A stretch of DNA of 33,313 bases from Chloroflexota bacterium. GTDB lineage: Bacteria; Chloroflexota; Anaerolineae; DUEN01. The stretch is from contig JAADGJ010000102.1 in assembly GCA_013152435.1 (NCBI GenBank), positions 13,928 to 47,240 of the forward strand, in the 5' to 3' direction. The notes under the pieces were generated by a model. It was given only the letters and a program-made list of their open reading frames with translations, made no database searches and was not told the DNA's origin. Below, piece by piece: positions 11,867 to 24,231 of the stretch; within the stretch, counting starts at the first letter, position 1; every line of letters begins with the position of its first letter. The position numbers and the translations under genes are program-made.

Positions 11867-11893
11867 ATTTTCGCAATCGAACAATTGAAGAGT

Positions 11894-12005
11894 TTCGCAG
11901 GGGGAGCTGGGGGGCAACCCGGCTGAGAGGACGGCTTTCAGGATCTCTGACCCGCCGTCGACCCTTGGAACCTGACCTGGGTAATGCCGGCGTAGGGATC
12001 GCGAA
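11894..12005 (+). ncRNA. TPP riboswitch (THI-box aptamer)
   Basis: The conserved TPP aptamer segments occur in order: GGGGGAGC (P2 5' side), CTGAGAGGACGG (thiamine-pyrimidine sensing loop region), GACCCTTGGAACCTGA, CTGGGTAATGCC and GGCGTAGGGATC. The outer P1 stem is TTCGC (11894-11898) with GCGAA (12001-12005). In this family TPP binding stabilises the aptamer and lowers downstream expression. Here an intrinsic terminator follows 20 bases later and the first gene is thiamine pyrophosphokinase, which fits control of thiamine salvage by its end product. Confidence 0.96.
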
Positions 12006-12025
12006 GGACCATATTGGGATATTCA

Positions 12026-12787: not shown

Positions 12788-12838
12788 CCCATCTCGCGTT
12801 TCAGCGTGATGCTATCCTACGTCTCTTGGAGGTGAATG

Positions 12839-13918
12839 ATGCGACAATGGATCGGTTGGTTGTTACTGACAACCCTTGTGTTGGCGGCGTGCGCACAGCC
12901 GGCGGGCGGCCCCGGCCCGCTTCCGACGGCCACGCCGGCAGAGGAACCCGTCGTGGTCACGCTGATGACCCATGATAGCTTCGCGATCAGCGAGTCGCTT
13001 CTCGATCAGTTCGAGGCGGAGACGGGGGCCACTTTGAAGATCCTGCGGGCGGGCGATGCCGGGGCGGCCTTGAACCAGGCGATCCTCAGCAAGGGGAACC
13101 CGCTGGCCGACGTCTTCTTCGGTGTGGACAACACGTTCTTCGGCCGGGCGATCCAGGCGGATATCTTCGAGCCGTACGAGTCGCCGATGCTGGCCGACAT
13201 CCCCGACGAGCTAGAGCTGGACCCACAGCACCGGCTGTTGCCCGTCGACTTCGGGTACGTGTGCCTGAACTACGACAAGGCCTATTTTGTGGAGAAGGGG
13301 TTGGCGGTGCCGCAGACGCTGGAGGATCTCACCAAGCCGGAGTACAAGGGCCTGCTGGTGGTGGAGAACCCGGCCACCTCCTCCCCCGGACTGGCGTTCC
13401 TCATCACCACCGTGGCCTATTTCGGCGAGGATGGGTATCTGGACTTTTGGCGCCAGTTGCGGGAAAATGATGTGTACGTCACGGACGGCTGGGAGGACGC
13501 GTACTTCGGGCAGTTCAGCGGCGGCTCCGGCGAGGGCACGCGGCCTCTGGTCGTCTCCTATGCCACCAGCCCGGCCGCGGAGGTGTACTTCAGCGAGGGC
13601 AAGCTGGATACTCCTCCCACCGGTAACATCCTGCCGGAAGGCGGAAGTTTCCGCCAGATCGAGTTCGTGGGGATCCTGAAGGGGACGAAGCATCCCGATC
13701 TGGCCCGCAAGCTGGTGGACTTCATGCTCAGCCGGCCGTTCCAGGAGGACATCCCGCTGCAGATGTTCGTGTACCCGGCCAACGAGAAGGCCGCGCTGCC
13801 GGAGCTCTTCGAGAAGTTCGCACAGGTACCCTCCGCTCCGGCCCAGATCACGCCGGAGGAGATCGACGCCGGGCGAGAGCGTTGGATCGATGAGTGGACC
13901 GCGACCGTGCTGCGATAG
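12839..13918 (+). CDS. thiB: Thiamine ABC transporter, substrate-binding lipoprotein
   Basis: A periplasm-side or surface-anchored binding protein of about 359 residues. It starts with a lipoprotein signal peptide (hydrophobic run then lipobox LAAC near residue 18). The mature part has TbpA/ThiB family features: [60 protein letters not shown], and a C-terminal [14 protein letters not shown]. These match thiamine rather than iron or sulfate binders, and the TPP riboswitch context agrees. Two adjacent ATGs exist (12836 and 12839); GGAGG spacing favours the second. Followed by permease and ATPase genes. Confidence 0.92.
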
Positions 13919-13997
13919 GTCGCTTCGGCCTCGGGATCCCGGGCGGTCCCCCTGTCGATCCTGATGCGAGGTGAGAGTTACGAACGATTCAGGAAGC

Positions 13998-15692
13998 ATG
14001 ATGCGTCGTCTGGTATGGATAGAGCGTATGGCGGCCGGGTTGCGTCTGGTGGTCTTCCTGCTCCCACTGGCCTACCTGGCCGTCTTCTTTTTCTATCCGC
14101 TCGCGGAGATCCTGCGGGTTAGCCTGGCCCCCGAGGGCGTCCTGGACCTGAGGCCCCTGCGCGTGCTGGTGACCGATGGGTATTACGCCCGTGTCCTGTG
14201 GTTCACCACGTGGCAGGCGGCGGTATCGACGGCCCTGACGTTGTTGCTGGGGCTCCCGGCCGCTTACGTCTTCGCCCGCTACCGGTTCCCCGGCAAGACC
14301 TTGCTGCGCGCGCTCACCACCATTCCCTTTGTGCTGCCCACGCTGGTGGTGGCGACTGCGTTCACCAGTCTGCTGGGGCCGCGCGGCTGGCTCAACACGT
14401 GGTTGATGGGCGCGCTGAACCTGGAGCGGCCTCCCATCCGCCTGATGCACACCATCTGGATCATCCTGCTGGCGCACGTGTTCTATAACGCCACCGTGAT
14501 CGTGCGCATCGTCGGCGGGTTCTGGGCCAACCTGGACCCGCGGCTGGAGGAGGCCGCCCGGGTGCTGGGCGCCGACCGCTGGCGCACCCTCCGGCGTGTC
14601 ACGCTCCCCCTGTTGCGGCCGTCGCTGATGGCCGCCTCCCTCCTCGTCTTCCTGTTCTGCTTCACGTCCTTTGGCGTGATCCTGGTGTTGGGTGGCCCGC
14701 GCTTTGCCACGCTGGAGGTGGAGATCTACCGTCAGGCCGTGCATCTCTTTCACTTGCCCGTTGCCGCCGCGCTCGCCCTGGTGCAAATGGTCATCACGTT
14801 CGTCGTCATGTCGGTGTATACCCGCATACAGGCGCGCACGGCCGTGCCGTTGAGCTTCCGCCCCCAACAGACGACGCAGCGCCATCCCCGGGGATGGCGC
14901 ACGCGATGGATGCTGCTCGCGATCTTGGGGACGATGCTCGTCGTGTTGCTGGTCCCGCTCCTGTCTCTGGCGGCGCGCTCGTTCGCCACCGAGGCCGGAT
15001 GGTCGTTGCGTTTCTACCGGGAGCTCTTCATCAACCGGCGCGAGTCGATCCTGTTCGTGCCGCCCATCGAGGCCGTCCGGAACTCGCTGGTCTTCGCCCT
15101 GGCGACGGTGGGGTTGTCCCTGTTGATGGGGGTGATCAGCGCGTACCTGTTGGCCCGGCCACGCCGCGGTCTGAGCGCCCTGTTGGATCCCGTGTTCATG
15201 TTGCCGCTGGGGACCTCCGCGGTCACCTTGGGATTTGGCTTCATCCTGGCGTTGGATCACCCTCCGCTCAACCTGCGCACCTCGCCGATCCTGGTGCCGC
15301 TGGCTCATACCCTGGTGGCCTTCCCCTTCGTGGTCCGCACCCTGCTGCCGGTGCTGCGCGGCATCCACCCTCATCTGCGGGATGCCGCCTCCGTGCTGGG
15401 CGCGTCCCCCGCGCAGGTGTGGTTGCGCGTTGACCTGCCCATTGTGGGGCGCGCCGTGTTGGTCGGCGCCGTCTTCGCGTTCACCATCAGCATGGGCGAG
15501 TTCGGCGCCACGTCCCTGGTGGCCCGCCCGGAGTTTCCCACCATGCCCGTGGCCATTTATCGGTTCCTCGGGCAGCCGGGCGCGCTGAATTATGGCCAGG
15601 CGTTGGCCATGAGCACGCTGCTCATGGCCGTTTGCACGGCGGGGCTGATCCTGATCGAGCGCTTCCGCTATCGCGGGGTCGGGGAGTTCTGA
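13998..15692 (+). CDS. thiP: Thiamine ABC transporter permease
   Basis: A 564-residue inner-membrane permease made of two fused BPD_transp_1 halves, each with about six helices. The EAA loops that contact the ATPase are LEEAARVLGADRWRTLRRVTLP-type in the first half and LRDAASVLGASPAQVWLRVDLP-type in the second. This fused organisation is usual for ThiP and for iron permeases; binding-protein identity and riboswitch context favour thiamine. ATG 13998 or 14001 follow an AGGA site; an in-frame GTG at 13971 would add nine residues with a weaker site. It ends three bases before thiQ. Confidence 0.9.
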   Translation: MMRRLVWIERMAAGLRLVVFLLPLAYLAVFFFYPLAEILRVSLAPEGVLDLRPLRVLVTDGYYARVLWFTTWQAAVSTALTLLLGLPAAYVFARYRFPGKTLLRALTTIPFVLPTLVVATAFTSLLGPRGWLNTWLMGALNLERPPIRLMHTIWIILLAHVFYNATVIVRIVGGFWANLDPRLEEAARVLGADRWRTLRRVTLPLLRPSLMAASLLVFLFCFTSFGVILVLGGPRFATLEVEIYRQAVHLFHLPVAAALALVQMVITFVVMSVYTRIQARTAVPLSFRPQQTTQRHPRGWRTRWMLLAILGTMLVVLLVPLLSLAARSFATEAGWSLRFYRELFINRRESILFVPPIEAVRNSLVFALATVGLSLLMGVISAYLLARPRRGLSALLDPVFMLPLGTSAVTLGFGFILALDHPPLNLRTSPILVPLAHTLVAFPFVVRTLLPVLRGIHPHLRDAASVLGASPAQVWLRVDLPIVGRAVLVGAVFAFTISMGEFGATSLVARPEFPTMPVAIYRFLGQPGALNYGQALAMSTLLMAVCTAGLILIERFRYRGVGEF

Positions 15693-15694
15693 GC

Positions 15695-16759
15695 ATGGGC
15701 TCTTCTTTGCTGCAGGTTCGAGATGTGTCCAAGACCTATGATGACGTTCGTGCCCTGGAGGGCGTCTCCCTGGACGTCGCGGAGGCGGAGGTTGTCGCGC
15801 TGTTGGGGCCGAGCGGCTGTGGCAAGACCACGCTCTTGCGCATCATCGCCGGGCTGGAGGTGCCGGATACGGGCGCTGTGTATTTGGCCGGGCGTGAGAT
15901 CACGTCCGTACCCCCGCATCGGCGTGGCTTCGGCCTGATGTTTCAGGATTACGTGCTCTTTCCTCATCAGGATGTGTTTCACAACGTGGCCTTTGGCCTG
16001 GAGATGCAGGGCTGGGATCGGGAGCGCGTGAGGGAGCGGGTGCGCGAGATGCTGGCCCTGGTCGGCCTGTCCGGCTACGAGCGCCGTCGCGTCTTCGAGC
16101 TGTCAGGTGGGGAGCAGCAGCGCGTGGCGTTGGCTCGCTCGCTGGCGCCGGAGCCGCGCCTGCTCATGTTGGACGAACCGCTGGGCTCTCTGGATCGGAC
16201 CCTGCGCGAGCAGCTCCTGGACGAGTTGCGCCAGATCCTGCATCAGGTGGGCGTGACCGCCCTGTACGTGACCCACGATCAGCAGGAGGCCTTTGCCCTG
16301 GCCGACCGGGTGATCATCCTGCGCTCCGGGCGGGTAGTACAGCAGGGAACGCCGGAGGAGATCTATCGTCACCCCGCTGACGCGTTCGTGGCTCGTTTTT
16401 TGGGGCACTCGAACCTGATCCCCGGCCGCGTGCGGGATCGCAGGGGCGTGGAGACGGAGCTGGGCCTTCTGGTCGTCCCGGACGCGGCGGATTTCCCGTC
16501 GGGCGCTCGGGTTACCGTGTTGATCCGTCCGGAGGCCGCCGAGCTGACGGCCGACGCGGATGCCCCCAACCGGGTGAGCGTGCGCGTGCTCGACCGCTCG
16601 TTCCGGGGGGATCGCTATCGGATCCAGGTGGCGCACGCTGGGGGCCTCGAGCTGACGCTGGAGATCGTGCCGCTGGATCGCCCCCCGCCGGAGCCGGGGG
16701 AAGAGGTCACGATCTCGCTCCATCCGGCGGGGCTGGCTTTGCTTGCCGTGAAGGGCTGA
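15695..16759 (+). CDS. thiQ: Thiamine ABC transporter ATP-binding protein
   Basis: A 354-residue cytosolic ABC ATPase energising the ThiBP importer. Motifs are Walker A GPSGCGKT (38-45), Q-loop MFQDYVLFPHQ, signature LSGGEQQRVALARSL, Walker B RLLMLDEPLGSLD and switch His in YVTHDQQEA. A C-terminal TOBE-like extension (about 235-354, NLIPGRVRDRRG onward) makes it longer than the short enterobacterial ThiQ and more like Fbp/Pot-type ATPases. The ATG follows the thiP stop by two bases, with GGGGAG upstream. Confidence 0.9.
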   Translation: MGSSLLQVRDVSKTYDDVRALEGVSLDVAEAEVVALLGPSGCGKTTLLRIIAGLEVPDTGAVYLAGREITSVPPHRRGFGLMFQDYVLFPHQDVFHNVAFGLEMQGWDRERVRERVREMLALVGLSGYERRRVFELSGGEQQRVALARSLAPEPRLLMLDEPLGSLDRTLREQLLDELRQILHQVGVTALYVTHDQQEAFALADRVIILRSGRVVQQGTPEEIYRHPADAFVARFLGHSNLIPGRVRDRRGVETELGLLVVPDAADFPSGARVTVLIRPEAAELTADADAPNRVSVRVLDRSFRGDRYRIQVAHAGGLELTLEIVPLDRPPPEPGEEVTISLHPAGLALLAVKG

Positions 16760-16919: not shown

Positions 16920-17324
16920 ATGTATCAGAAGACCGTCGTTGTGGGACACCTGGGGCGGGATCCGGAGCTCCGGTACACGCCGTCGGGGCAGTCCGTGTGC
17001 TCGTTCAGCCTGGCCACGACTCGCCGCTGGACGGATCGCAATGGCAATCCGCAGGAGCGGACGACTTGGTTTCGCGTGACCGCATGGGGAAAGCTGGCGG
17101 AGCTGTGCAGCCAGTACCTGTCGAAGGGGCGTCTGGTGTTGGTGGAGGGGGATATCGAGGCCTCCGCGTGGCTGGGGCAGGATGGGCAGCCGCGTGCTAC
17201 GCTGGAGCTAACCGCTCGCAACGTTCGCTTCCTCGGCGGGCGGGACACCGCGGTGGCGAGCGCGGATCTCCCCGTCCAGGCGGAGGAGCCCGCCAGCCTG
17301 GATGAGGATGAGCTCCCATTCTAG
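16920..17324 (+). CDS. ssb: Single-stranded DNA-binding protein
   Basis: A 134-residue SSB. The OB fold occupies residues 1-105 (start MYQKTVVVGHLGRDPELRYTP, then VCSFSLATTR and WFRVTAWGKLAELCSQYLSKG, as in standard bacterial SSB). A short linker of about 20 residues leads to the acidic tail DEDELPF, the peptide used to recruit replication and repair partners. GGGGGTGA lies just upstream of the ATG. It heads a plus-strand group with DUF3467, translin and nuclease-like genes. Confidence 0.95.
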   Translation: MYQKTVVVGHLGRDPELRYTPSGQSVCSFSLATTRRWTDRNGNPQERTTWFRVTAWGKLAELCSQYLSKGRLVLVEGDIEASAWLGQDGQPRATLELTARNVRFLGGRDTAVASADLPVQAEEPASLDEDELPF

Positions 17325-17770: not shown

Positions 17771-17883
17771 GGCGTCCTTCGCGGTCTTCCCGATGAGAGG
17801 TGTGGCCTCTGTGGCTCGCGTCATATGGCGCGAGGTCCTTCCTGACCGTTGTTCTTAATCCCTTTGATGACCGAGGCGCTATC

Positions 17884-18540
17884 TTGCACACGTTATCTTC
17901 CATTTTCGAGACGATCCGAGAGGATTTCGAGCGGCGCAGCGCCCTTCGCGATGAGACGTTGCGTCGCTCGCGAGAGCTGATTCGGCATTGTGCCCTGAGC
18001 ATTCGGGCGATCCATCGACATGAGTGGGATGAGGCGGATCGCCTGCTGGAGACCGCCAGGCAGGCGGCCGCTCTCATGGTGGACGAGCTGGCCGATCATC
18101 CCGATCTTTACTTCACCGGCTATACGCAGGATGCCCTGAAGGAGCTGGCCGAAGCCCACATCGTCAACGCGTTGGTGCGGGGGCAGCCGCTGCCCTCGCC
18201 GGAGCACCTGCGGATCGAGTTCCCGGCCTATCTGAACGGTCTGGGCGAGGCGATGGGCGAGCTTCGTCGTTATGTGCTGGATCTGATCCGGCGCGGGCAG
18301 ATCGCCGAGGCCGAGCCGCTCCTGGAGATCATGGACGAGGTTTACAGCTACCTGGTGACCGTGGATTTCCCCGATGCGATCACCGGCGGGCTGCGTCGCA
18401 CCACGGACATGGTGCGTGGCGTGTTGGAGCGCACCCGGGGAGATCTCACCGTGGCGATTCGGCAGGACCAGTTGCGCAGCGCTCTGGCTGCGCTGGAGGC
18501 GCGGCTGGATACCGCCCGGCAGGAGAGCGACCCCGCATGA
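17884..18540 (+). CDS. Translin-family predicted nucleic-acid-binding protein
   Basis: A 218-residue all-helical protein. The order RREDFERR..RDETLRRSRELIRHCALSIRAIHR, then DEADRLLETARQA, then EFPAYLNGLGEAMGELRRYVLDLI and finally LRRTTDMVRGVLERTRGDLTVAI follows the translin/TRAX fold, best known in eukaryotes (ssDNA/RNA-binding octamers, C3PO ribonuclease) and archaea. Whether it cuts RNA is open; acidic residues exist in the GEAMGEL helix, but I cannot confirm the TRAX catalytic triad. I chose TTG 17884 because GAGG lies seven bases upstream and similarity begins there. Its stop overlaps the next start by four bases (ATGA). Confidence 0.8.
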   Translation: MHTLSSIFETIREDFERRSALRDETLRRSRELIRHCALSIRAIHRHEWDEADRLLETARQAAALMVDELADHPDLYFTGYTQDALKELAEAHIVNALVRGQPLPSPEHLRIEFPAYLNGLGEAMGELRRYVLDLIRRGQIAEAEPLLEIMDEVYSYLVTVDFPDAITGGLRRTTDMVRGVLERTRGDLTVAIRQDQLRSALAALEARLDTARQESDPA

Positions 18541-18779
18541 GCCGTGAATGGATCCGAGCCAGCGAGCTTGGAACCTATGCCTATTGTGCCCGTGCCTGGT
18601 GGTTGCAATCCGTGCGCGGAGTGCAAAGCCGGAATGAGCCGGCTCAGCGCGCTGGGATCCGACGTCACGCTCAGCATGGGCGCCAGGCCGCATGGGCGTA
18701 TCGGCTGCGCTCCGTAGGGCTCCTTCTTCTGGCGTTGGGGCTGTTGATCCTCCTCCTGGGGATATGGCGATATGTCTAA
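18537..18779 (+). CDS. Small membrane protein resembling a Cas4 N-terminus
   Basis: An 80-residue protein. Residues 7-22 read RASELGTYAYCARAWW, close to the start of Cas4-like RecB-family nucleases, where a tyrosine/cysteine segment supplies the first Fe-S ligand (Cys17 here). Residues 35-48 (PAQRAGIRRHAQHG) resemble nuclease motif I with its His (His44). Instead of a nuclease core the chain then ends in one membrane helix (about 60-77). The rest of the Cas4 signature is in the gene at 19564-20091. It overlaps translin by 4 bases and the next gene by 8, so it is certainly translated with them. Function inferred. Confidence 0.75.
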   Translation: MSREWIRASELGTYAYCARAWWLQSVRGVQSRNEPAQRAGIRRHAQHGRQAAWAYRLRSVGLLLLALGLLILLLGIWRYV

Positions 18780-19488
18780 ACGACATATTCGCATCATCCT
18801 TCGGGTGGCGTTGGGAGCCATCCTGGTCGTCGTCTCCTGGTGGACGATGGGCCTGTTCCACGTGCACGATTTGGCCGCCCCGGAGGAGATACCCGCTCGC
18901 AGGCGTCCCTGGATGCGTCCCCCGCGGCCCACGCCCACGCCCTGGCCTACGCCGACTCCTTTCCCTTCGCCCACGCCGACCCCCATCCCCGTGACGCCGA
19001 CGCCGACCCCAACGCCTGTGCCCACTCCGGAGGCATGGATGCGGGATCTGGTCGAGCAGAACGGCTTTGACCCCAACGATCGCTTCATCATCGTGGATCA
19101 GGATCGCCAGCGCATGATCGTGGCGGAGGGTGGCGTCATCGTGGCGGATATGCCGATCAGCACGGGCGATCCGGATCGGAACTACCACACGCCCGCCTGG
19201 GTGGGACGAGTGGGCGAGTACTGGGGGACCTTCTCGGCCTTCGGTGTCAGCGCCGATCATGCGTGGTACCTGTTCAAAGCGGCCGGGAGCATCCTGATCC
19301 ATGGCGCTCCCTACGTGATCGAGGACGGCGAGAAGCGATACAAGGAGATGTACGCCCTGGGCGCGTATCCGGCCAGCCGAGGATGTATTCGCCTTCGGCC
19401 GGAGGACGCCGAGTGGTTTACCCAGTGGGGGCCTTACGGCGTGCCCATCATCATCCTGCCGTGGACGTTGCCCCCCGCGGAGGGATAG
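18772..19488 (+). CDS. L,D-transpeptidase (YkuD domain), membrane-anchored
   Basis: A 238-residue protein with a basic N-terminus, one membrane helix (about 8-28), a Thr-Pro-rich linker (52-86) and a YkuD catalytic domain (about 100-235). Catalytic signature: H177 in LIHGAPY and the SRGCIR motif with Cys205 and Arg207. Such enzymes form 3-3 cross-links in peptidoglycan or attach proteins to it, outside the membrane. The beginning of the domain reads RFIIVDQDRQRMIVAEGG, as usual. Its start overlaps the upstream small gene by 8 bases. A terminator follows. Confidence 0.92.
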   Translation: MSKRHIRIILRVALGAILVVVSWWTMGLFHVHDLAAPEEIPARRRPWMRPPRPTPTPWPTPTPFPSPTPTPIPVTPTPTPTPVPTPEAWMRDLVEQNGFDPNDRFIIVDQDRQRMIVAEGGVIVADMPISTGDPDRNYHTPAWVGRVGEYWGTFSAFGVSADHAWYLFKAAGSILIHGAPYVIEDGEKRYKEMYALGAYPASRGCIRLRPEDAEWFTQWGPYGVPIIILPWTLPPAEG

Positions 19489-19503
19489 CGAAGACCAGAC
19501 AAG

Positions 19504-19538
19504 AGGCGGCGGCGCTCGCAAGGGCGCACCGCCTTTTT
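19504..19538 (+). terminator. Intrinsic terminator after the L,D-transpeptidase gene
   Basis: AGGCGG (19504-19509) pairs with CCGCCT (19529-19534), enclosing further GC pairs, and TTTT follows. It separates the transpeptidase gene from the nuclease-like gene 25 bases on, so the latter is expressed by read-through or from an unseen promoter. Confidence 0.75.
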
Positions 19539-19563
19539 CTGATTCGAGGGGAGGGGAGCCGGG

Positions 19564-20091
19564 ATGTCCGTCGTGGTCGTGGGGCTCGCTCTGGCGCTGG
19601 TGTTGGCTGGCGTCCTGATATTGTGGGCTGCCCGACACGTCCGCCAGGCGACAGGGTTGCCGGTGGGGCGCGTCATCTATGCCGATACCAGCGCCTGGCG
19701 ACGGGCGGAGGAGCCGATCCTCAGCCGGCGCTGGGGGTTGGTCGGCCGGCCGGATTACCTGGTGGCTCACGGGCGTGAAGTCATCCCGGTGGAGGTGAAG
19801 TCCGGGCGGCGTCCCAACCGGCCGTACGAGTCGCATCTGTTGCAGTTGGCCGCTTACTGCCTGCTGGTCGAGGAGCAGACCGGGCGCAGGCCCTCCCATG
19901 GCCTGTTGTGCTATGATGACGCCGTCGTGGAGGTGCCCTTCGACCACGCGCTGCGCCAGGCCGTGCTCGACACACTGTCCAACATGCGACGAGCCCTGCA
20001 GCACGGCGAGGCGTCGCGATCGCATAAGGACCCGGCCCGTTGCTGGGCCTGCGGCGTACGCCACGCGTGCGATCAGCGGCTGGAGGGGTGA
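19564..20091 (+). CDS. Membrane-anchored Cas4/RecB-like nuclease, C-terminal part
   Basis: A 175-residue protein. After a membrane helix (3-22) come the PD-(D/E)xK core motifs of Cas4-type nucleases: GRPDYLV (Asp64), IPVEVKSG (Glu77, Lys79) and QLAAY (Gln94, Tyr98). The C-terminus has C-x2-C-x5-C (Cys160, 163, 169), matching three of the four Fe-S ligands of Cas4. The fourth ligand and the motif-I His expected at the N-terminus are absent here and are found in the protein at 18537-18779. No cas genes or CRISPR repeats are in the window. A GGGGAGGGGAG site precedes the ATG. Nuclease activity is predicted, not shown. Confidence 0.82.
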   Translation: MSVVVVGLALALVLAGVLILWAARHVRQATGLPVGRVIYADTSAWRRAEEPILSRRWGLVGRPDYLVAHGREVIPVEVKSGRRPNRPYESHLLQLAAYCLLVEEQTGRRPSHGLLCYDDAVVEVPFDHALRQAVLDTLSNMRRALQHGEASRSHKDPARCWACGVRHACDQRLEG

Positions 20092-22500: not shown

Positions 22501-24231
22501 ATGAGCTCCTCTCGTCTGCTCATCCTCGGTATTATCCTCTCGTTGGCCATTATCGGAGCCGCGTTGTTCATCACGAGCCGGCGCGCTGCCGCGCCGGAGG
22601 CCGCTTTGGCTTCCCCGACGGTGACCACACCGCCGCCGACGGAGACGCCCCTGCCGCCCACTCCCACCCCCACGGCGACGGCGACGGAGGTCAGCCCGAC
22701 CCGACCGCAGGAGGAGATCACGGCGACCGTGCCCGTGGAGGTCACGGCGACGGTCGAGGTCACGGGTACTGTGCAGGCGACCGAGGTGATCACGACGCCT
22801 CCGATCACCTCGACCGTGGAGGCGGCCGGGGAGGTCCTCACGGGAACGCCTGAGCAGCTCACGCCGACGCCGACTCCCAGTCCGACGGCGACGGAGGCCG
22901 CTCCGACAGAGACGCCCACGCCCAGCCCAACGGCGACCCTGACCGTCGCGATCACGCCGACCTGGACACCGACCCCCACCCTGTCCGCTACGCCCAGCCC
23001 GACGGCCACTCCCTCCGATACGCCGACGCCGGCGCTGCCTACACCCACGCCTTCCGCTACGCCCAGCCCGACGAGCACACCGTCGCTGACGGCCACGCCG
23101 ACCTGGACGCCGACCTCCACTCCATCCGCCACGCCCAGCCCGACGGTGACTCCCTCCGATACGCCGACGCCGGCGCCGCCCACACCTACCCCGACGGTCA
23201 CGCCGACGCCCGTGATCCCGCCGACGGACACGCCCACGGCGACGCCGACGCCGCAGTTGCCCACTCCCACCCCGACGGCCTCGGCCACCCCCAGCGCGAC
23301 GCCCACGCCCGTGCCGCCTACACCCACCCCGAGCCCGACGCCTCCCCCTTCGGCCGGGCTACCGGCGGGCGCTGTGGTCCGCTTCGCCTATGAGAGCCAG
23401 AGCCTCCATGTGGATCGCGAGGCCGTTTACTACGAGGACGGGCGGGTGGTGATCCAGGATCATCGACGGCAGGGCGAGTGGTTGCTGCACGGCCAGCCGG
23501 AGGATGTCTCGGGGCTGCTGGAGCAGTTGGCGCAGCGAGGCTTCTTCGATCTCGCCCAGGAGCGCTTTGGGTCGCCGTGCGCTACGTGCCTGACCTATCA
23601 CCTGGCGGCCCGGTATCAGGGGCAGGAGCGGGTGATCCGGGTGGACACCCCACCGTGGATCACGGCCAGCCAGCTGCCGCGTGAGCTGGGCGCGCTGCGA
23701 CATACCATCGCGCAATTGCAGATGGCCATCGATTCCACCATCGCCAGCTATCCGCCGGGCGAGGTTCATCTGCCCACGCCCACGCCCACGCCTCCGAGCT
23801 TCACGTTCGGCCCGCCGCAGGTGGTCGGAGATCTGGAGGTGGCGGCCGCGGCCCCGCTGATCGCCACCGAACTTCCCGGCACGCCCGTGTTGCGGCCGGA
23901 GCGCAGTCGCTTCCTGATCGTGCCATTGCGATTGACCAATCGCAGCGGGACGTATCAGCAGCTTGCCGCCAGCTCGACCTTCGGCGAGGGCTTGATGGAT
24001 AGCCGGGGCCGGAGATACGAGGCCGGGGTGGCGGCCAGCAATCGCTACGCGGAGTTGCATGGGCTGACCTCGTTGACCTTCTACAAGCTGGCCCCGTGGA
24101 GCATCGTGCAGGGCGTGCTGGTCTTCGATGTGCCGGCGGATGCCCGTGGGTTCCGGCTCACGGTGAAGGATGCCGATCCGCCCAGCAGTGCCCCGCCCAC
24201 GATCGTGATCAAGCTGCCGGAGCCACAGTAA
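22501..24231 (+). CDS. Secreted Thr-Pro-rich repeat protein with two C-terminal domains
   Basis: A 576-residue protein of unknown function. Residues 5-23 form a signal anchor. Residues about 38-284 are almost entirely Thr, Pro, Ala and Ser in TPTPT, SATPSPT and TWTPT units, an extended stalk likely outside the membrane. Residues about 285-410 form a domain opening [24 protein letters not shown]-style and containing a CATC pair. A second short TPTPTP linker precedes residues about 440-576, which resemble a DUF4352-like beta sandwich ([20 protein letters not shown]). A surface or binding role is inferred from architecture only. GGAGG lies ten bases before the ATG. Confidence 0.75.
22615..23355 (+). 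repeat. Low-complexity Thr-Pro coding repeat tract
   Basis: About 740 bases built from short variants of ACGCCGACGCC and CCCAGCCCGACG-like units, coding the Thr-Pro stalk. Larger duplicated blocks are visible: a segment coding TWTPT[18 protein letters not shown] occurs twice, near 22960 and 23100. Such tracts tend to change length by slippage or recombination. Confidence 0.8.

Follow-up and report, generated by a model that had tools for sequence, protein, structure and literature searches.

What does a Cas4-like nuclease signature mean when it is divided between two membrane proteins with no CRISPR system beside them? The question is raised by a stretch of 33,313 nucleotides from a Chloroflexota bacterium (contig JAADGJ010000102.1; the whole of this stretch is what we call the window), in which a gene for an 80-residue protein (18537–18779, + strand) and a gene for a 175-residue protein (19564–20091, + strand) flank an L,D-transpeptidase gene. 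A sequence-only reading of the window had proposed that the two proteins join through their membrane helices to rebuild one Fe–S cluster and one active site, and that such an arrangement would be new. We consider it likely that the two proteins, referred to below as the N-half and the C-half, are the separate chains of a single Cas4-family nuclease whose natural break falls after the motif-I helix and ahead of the core. This is inferred, with a single-chain model of a relative as the only structural evidence and with no data on contact, on an Fe–S cluster or on activity. What is shown by comparison is that each half has one predicted membrane helix at the break, that the halves are inherited together and that jointly they hold every sequence hallmark of Cas4.

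The N-half comprises the N-terminal helices of Cas4 with Cys17 (codon 18585–18587) and the motif-I sequence Gly40-x3-His44 (His44 codon 18666–18668), followed by a C-terminal membrane helix at approximately residues 59–77. Profile alignment to canonical Cas4 makes Cys17 the counterpart of the first cluster cysteine and His44 that of the motif-I histidine. The profile match is partial, the small protein corresponding to about the first 45 positions of Cas4, and its strength depends on what is compared. Alone, the N-half matches positions 2–42 of the 180 in TIGR00372 with an E value of 0.02, which is weak and below the curated cut-off; the PADLOC Cas4d profile matches it with E 3.5e-4, and a profile built from N-halves matches a set of 13 canonical Cas4 sequences across 46 columns with E 3e-8. 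The protein is conserved in the phylum and was detected in 76 of 301 Chloroflexota genomes. Every N-half that scores above 40 bits retains Cys17 (103 of 103) as well as Gly40 and His44 (104 of 104 for each), and the three residues are invariant except in one divergent family, f60.

The C-half begins with a membrane helix (residues 2–20), continues with a PD-(D/E)XK core that contains Asp64 (19753–19755), Glu77-x-Lys79 (19792–19800) and Gln94-x3-Tyr98, and ends with the three Fe–S cysteines Cys160-x2-Cys163-x5-Cys169. Its assignment is secure by curated cut-offs: it scores 78.3 bits against TIGR00372 cas4 (cut-off 65), covering profile positions 57–178 of 180, and 38.4 bits against the Pfam family Cas_Cas4, PF01930 (cut-off 22.7). 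The three cysteines and Lys79 are invariant in 127 of 127 C-halves, with Asp64 kept in 122 and Glu77 in 123 of them. In the pair from the window His44, Asp64, Glu77, Lys79, Gln94 and Tyr98 each align to canonical Cas4, and the four Fe–S cysteines, one N-terminal in the N-half and three C-terminal in the C-half, line up with the canonical Cas4 cysteines. Given the invariance of Cys17, Gly40 and His44 on one chain and of Cys160, Cys163 and Cys169 on the other, the E value of 3e-8 for the N-half profile and the presence of the N-half in 76 of 301 genomes, the pattern is beyond chance. Both open reading frames and all of the residues that had been named beforehand (Cys17, His44, Asp64, Glu77-x-Lys79, Gln94-x3-Tyr98 and the three cysteines) are thus present as claimed, and the Cas4 profile searches that had been suggested as a check gave complementary matches for the two proteins, in favour of the proposal.

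When the profiles of the two halves were linked and compared with the 13 canonical Cas4 sequences the E value reached 1e-29, and the alignment placed the first cysteine, the G-x3-H motif, the Asp, the Glu-x-Lys, the Gln and the three C-terminal cysteines on their Cas4 equivalents. Relative to canonical Cas4, the two membrane helices form an insertion just past the motif-I helix. Both membrane segments in the window are strongly hydrophobic, with 19-residue Kyte–Doolittle means of 2.6 and 3.0, and a hydrophobic segment above threshold is found at the break in 102 of 103 N-halves and 116 of 123 C-halves. In 99 of 103 N-halves and 121 of 123 C-halves the flank of the helix next to the soluble part has more lysine and arginine than the other flank, so that, by the positive-inside rule, we infer that both soluble parts should be cytoplasmic.

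The chain chosen for modelling was that of a relative (locus L023) with the two genes in one frame; the single TAG was read as Gln to give 258 residues. The model, with pLDDT 95.2 and pTM 0.90, is a complete Cas4 fold and aligns with Cas4 (7mi4) with Z 21.2 over 182 residues at 2.7 Å, spanning residues 6–200 of the chain. The C-half of the window modelled alone (pLDDT 91.9) aligns to Cas4 over residues 66–181 only, with Z 13.7. Since the C-half alone covers part of the fold and the linked chain covers all of it, the N-half supplies the missing part. A joint structure prediction of the two chains had been suggested as a further check; it has been met only by this single-chain model, not by a true two-chain model, and the link between the halves partly imposes their closeness. 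The model is therefore support for, and not proof of, assembly from separate chains. The proposal that the halves join through their membrane helices to rebuild a cluster and an active site is supported as an inference, with contact, a bound Fe–S cluster and nuclease activity not shown.

Of 60 relatives, 49 gave a match to the C-half, though in a few it was only a weak match to canonical Cas4. Thirty class-level genomes were searched for the N-half. It is present in 17 of the 18 whose C-half is strong, the exception being G045, where about 300 bases part the C-half from the end of its contig; the remaining 12, which lack a strong C-half, yielded only one weak N-half match, of 22 bits. Across the 301 genomes of the phylum the N-half is present in 61 of 61 with a C-half of at least 145 bits. 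With the C-half threshold lowered to 95 bits, 74 genomes have both halves, 12 the C-half only, two the N-half only and 213 neither (Fisher p ~9e-55, uncorrected for shared ancestry). All 12 exceptions at this threshold belong to family f60; searching with a fused member recovers the N-half in 11 of them, and in the twelfth (G313) the C-half is truncated by a contig end. Other genomes that break the pattern are G119, which has the N-half without the C-half and is 82% complete, and G067 and G282, with weaker C-half matches and no N-half. The two halves are adjacent or overlapping in 90 of 128 distinct C-half loci. In several genomes both are present though unlinked, for example on one contig at 0.24 Mb (C-half) and 3.05 Mb (N-half) in G013, and at 0.19 and 1.08 Mb on one contig in G335. 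The expectation that the same pair would be found in relatives is therefore met across the phylum.

Family f60, which is Ktedonobacteria-like, provides natural fusions. In three of its genomes a single open frame covers both halves, the N-half preceding the C-half as expected, and the chain has two membrane helices midway (L165/L153, L166 and L171/L148). Some further members of the family differ from these by just one stop codon in frame. A maximum-likelihood tree built from C-half cores places canonical Cas4 on one side of a branch with support 97/89 and every split, fused or Planctomycete sequence on the other; the fusions are found nested at two or three points within the split forms. From this nesting we take the fusion to be derived there and the split to be the standing state in this set; it follows that the split is not decay, and the fusions favour joint function over gene disruption. 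Relatives with one uninterrupted gene had been put forward as evidence that would refute the proposal. Three exist, but they are nested in split forms and so do not indicate disruption. A lack of conservation of Cys17 and His44 had likewise been named as refuting, and this is not borne out outside f60.

Within f60 several C-halves, fused ones included, are without Asp64 (Thr or Ala instead) or without Glu77, and the N-halves lose Gly40 and His44; the cysteines stay. Five f60 sequences (L148, L153, L154, L158 and L160) from which Asp64 or Glu77 has gone keep the three cysteines, an apparent loss of catalysis with retention of the Fe–S site. With catalytic residues lost in this way, nuclease activity is not universal.

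The surroundings of the pair were considered for clues to its role. The L,D-transpeptidase (YkuD) gene between the halves (18772–19488, + strand; PF03734, 63.8 bits) overlaps the end of the N-half gene by eight bases. Immediately upstream, a gene of the NCBIfam PRK14562 family (17800–18540, + strand; NF011160, 292.9 bits with a cut-off of 291), for which Pfam gives a sub-threshold Translin match only, overlaps the start of the N-half gene by four bases; a neighbour in 21 loci, it is a candidate partner. The four-base and eight-base overlaps look like those of one transcription unit, an inference from sequence. An SSB gene further upstream (16920–17324, + strand; PF00436, 120 bits) belongs to the same context, with SSB-type neighbours in about 9–10 loci. 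The title of the sequence-only reading names the L,D-transpeptidase, and here a correction is needed: the gene does not belong to the system, and most loci are without it. A gap of approximately 640–1030 bases separates the halves in 20 of 128 loci and the L,D-transpeptidase fills 18 of these. Since it lies between the halves in only 18 of 128 loci we rule it out as a component of the enzyme; it is probably an operon neighbour. Neighbours in the Anaerolineae are SSB, DUF3467 and the PRK14562-family gene; in family f27 they are NAD kinase and, downstream, an SMC/RecN-type gene, and in another group RseP and a cytidylyltransferase-family gene. Neighbourhoods thus differ between classes and the context does not fix the role.

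Some further features of the window may be recorded. On the minus strand an open frame of 723 codons (17893–20064) spans the entire locus in antisense and is seen again in relatives; GC-rich coding on the opposite strand probably accounts for it. A TPP riboswitch (11890–12016, + strand, 65.7 bits) lies upstream of a probable thiamine-type ABC transporter operon at about 12836–16759, of which the ATPase alone was tested. At 22882–23163 two tandem copies of 141 nucleotides, 73% alike, occupy a Thr-Pro-rich part of the open reading frame 22501–24231.

The claim that no CRISPR system lies nearby held. We scanned the window for a CRISPR-like repeat array and found none, and the sole Cas1 match of the genome is on another contig, contig 15, beside a canonical one-chain Cas4 (G000:C15:40603-42591). 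From this adjacency we conclude that the genome has a CRISPR-type adaptation module elsewhere, and a role for the split pair in CRISPR adaptation is rejected because the canonical Cas4 next to cas1 is located there. Over the phylum Cas1 associates positively with the C-half (66 of 86 genomes with it, compared with 57 of 215), though this may merely reflect phylogeny; 20 of the 86 C-half genomes have no Cas1 match. A phage or viral origin was rejected, there being no match in phage records or viral contigs. The pair does occur on plasmids of Planctomycetes: pSINAC03 (L195) and PALBO2 (L196) each encode a protein of 88–91 residues, annotated as hypothetical only, and a 169-residue nuclease, with genes overlapping by four bases and the same cysteine pattern. 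Both pairs adjoin DNA methylase genes, of the MmeI type in PALBO2. On a further plasmid, pPL62-2 (L217), the annotation shows no more than a short Dna2/Cas4 piece, which overlaps a small hypothetical gene and may be frameshifted.

We infer, with good support, that the two proteins make up one enzyme of Cas4 type at the inner face of the cytoplasmic membrane; their membrane helices would pair up into a hairpin that leaves both soluble parts on the cell's interior side. Pairing would bring Cys17 to Cys160, Cys163 and Cys169, which together would hold one Fe–S cluster, and His44 to Asp64, Glu77 and Lys79, which would form the metal site. The product may be an exonuclease that is tethered to the membrane and trims, at its inner face, DNA ends or single-stranded DNA without taking part in CRISPR adaptation; candidate substrates are incoming DNA or intermediates of repair or replication. 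This role is an inference with weak support, activity not having been measured, and we would not wager for or against it. A bolder reading, on which we are equally divided, is of a phylum-wide, CRISPR-independent, two-chain Cas4 with its Fe–S cluster and active site placed across a membrane-hairpin interface, active only when the chains meet and monitoring or degrading DNA at the inner surface.

Several other explanations deserve consideration. The simplest is that a one-chain cas4 was interrupted by the L,D-transpeptidase gene and that the halves are relics; in support of this, one-chain fusions exist in a few relatives and a gene does separate the halves here. It is all but excluded, as split halves occur phylum-wide with invariant cluster and catalytic residues, 90 of the 128 loci are adjacent with nothing between, the halves persist when unlinked and the fusions are nested in split forms. 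Nor do we give much credence to the idea that the C-half works alone, or with canonical Cas4, and that the N-half is an unrelated regulator that travels with it. The confident model of the C-half by itself (pLDDT 91.9) would allow this, but the N-half is homologous to exactly the missing segment of Cas4, occurs in three genomes fused to the C-half in the order to be expected, and completes the fold. Slightly less remote, though still unlikely, is that the pair assembles but generally acts as a membrane DNA-binding or redox-sensing Fe–S protein and not as a nuclease. The four cysteines and Lys79 are indeed kept where f60 loses Asp64 or Glu77. Outside f60, however, nearly all sequences keep Asp64, Glu77, Lys79, Gln94 and His44 (122 to 127 of 127 C-halves and all N-halves scored), a pattern typical of active PD-(D/E)XK enzymes.

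The remaining alternatives concern what a nuclease at the membrane would be for. It is possible that the pair is mainly a barrier or defence against DNA arriving by transformation, conjugation or phage. The membrane location would suit this, as would the Planctomycete plasmid copies beside DNA methylases, one of them an MmeI-type restriction-modification enzyme, and in Synechococcus elongatus the loss of a Cas4-like nuclease that limits the plasmid RSF1010 aided its transfer or maintenance (PMC10653904). Against it, chromosomal copies are surrounded by housekeeping genes and, in contrast to defence genes with their patchy distribution, occur in almost every member of several families, and phage records and viral contigs gave no match. 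ComEC, found by profile search in 270 of 301 genomes, is uninformative on DNA uptake. A part at the membrane in repairing or replicating DNA, or in handling the chromosome, is an option that we rate below an even chance. The SSB and PRK14562-family genes of the Anaerolineae operon and the SMC/RecN-type gene downstream in f27 point this way, and the structural neighbours include the repair nucleases Dna2, EXO5, MGME1 and AdnAB; the neighbours in other classes (RseP and the cytidylyltransferase-family gene) are unrelated, however, and there are no functional data. There are hints for both roles, and the data do not decide between a repair-type and a barrier-type function.

Cas4 has so far been treated as a soluble single-chain nuclease, and the function of solo-Cas4, the members of the family outside CRISPR–cas loci, is an open question. 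Many Chloroflexi are reported to carry solo-Cas4 proteins that form a monophyletic group (Hudaiberdiev et al., 2017; PMC5704561), and it is likely, by inference, that C-half sequences are among those described. The main text of that paper does not mention a split of Cas4 or transmembrane segments, and the N-half is not described as a separate gene. A large group of Chloroflexota solo-Cas4 would then consist of two halves held in the membrane, one of which is easily passed over as a short hypothetical protein. An assay of the C-half by itself would be short of one cluster ligand and of the motif-I histidine, and could fail because of their absence. The pair offers a route to testing solo-Cas4 function and a natural case of an Fe–S site common to two chains at a membrane.

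The claim of a new arrangement is supported to this extent: we found no description of a split or membrane Cas4 in the literature searched, which covered few subscription papers and preprints. The CRISPR-associated Cas4 proteins (7mi4 and 8d3l) resemble the linked chain over the whole fold, with Z 21.2 and 19.4, and share the PD-(D/E)XK, QxxxY and four-cysteine patterns. They are single soluble chains encoded beside or fused to cas1, whereas the split pair is two membrane chains with no cas gene nearby and does not meet the criterion for that class, a position beside or fused with cas1 or cas2. The pair does meet the criterion for solo-Cas4, with which it shares membership of the Cas4 family, a location away from CRISPR loci and the phylum. 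Solved Cas4 structures are usually of a single soluble chain, although this is not a formal criterion, whereas the split pair has two genes with one predicted membrane helix each. The Argonaute-associated Cas4-family protein ACE1 (9iac and 9iab) shares the Cas4 fold outside CRISPR (Z ~11) but was solved as a single chain, and our comparison showed no split or membrane helices. The RecB-type, Dna2, EXO5, MGME1 and AdnAB exonucleases, which are single chains or helicase–nuclease complexes, share the nuclease core (Z 11 to 15) and are less similar than Cas4. Set beside these systems, the split membrane Cas4 seems to be a widespread and apparently undescribed way of tethering a DNA nuclease to the membrane.
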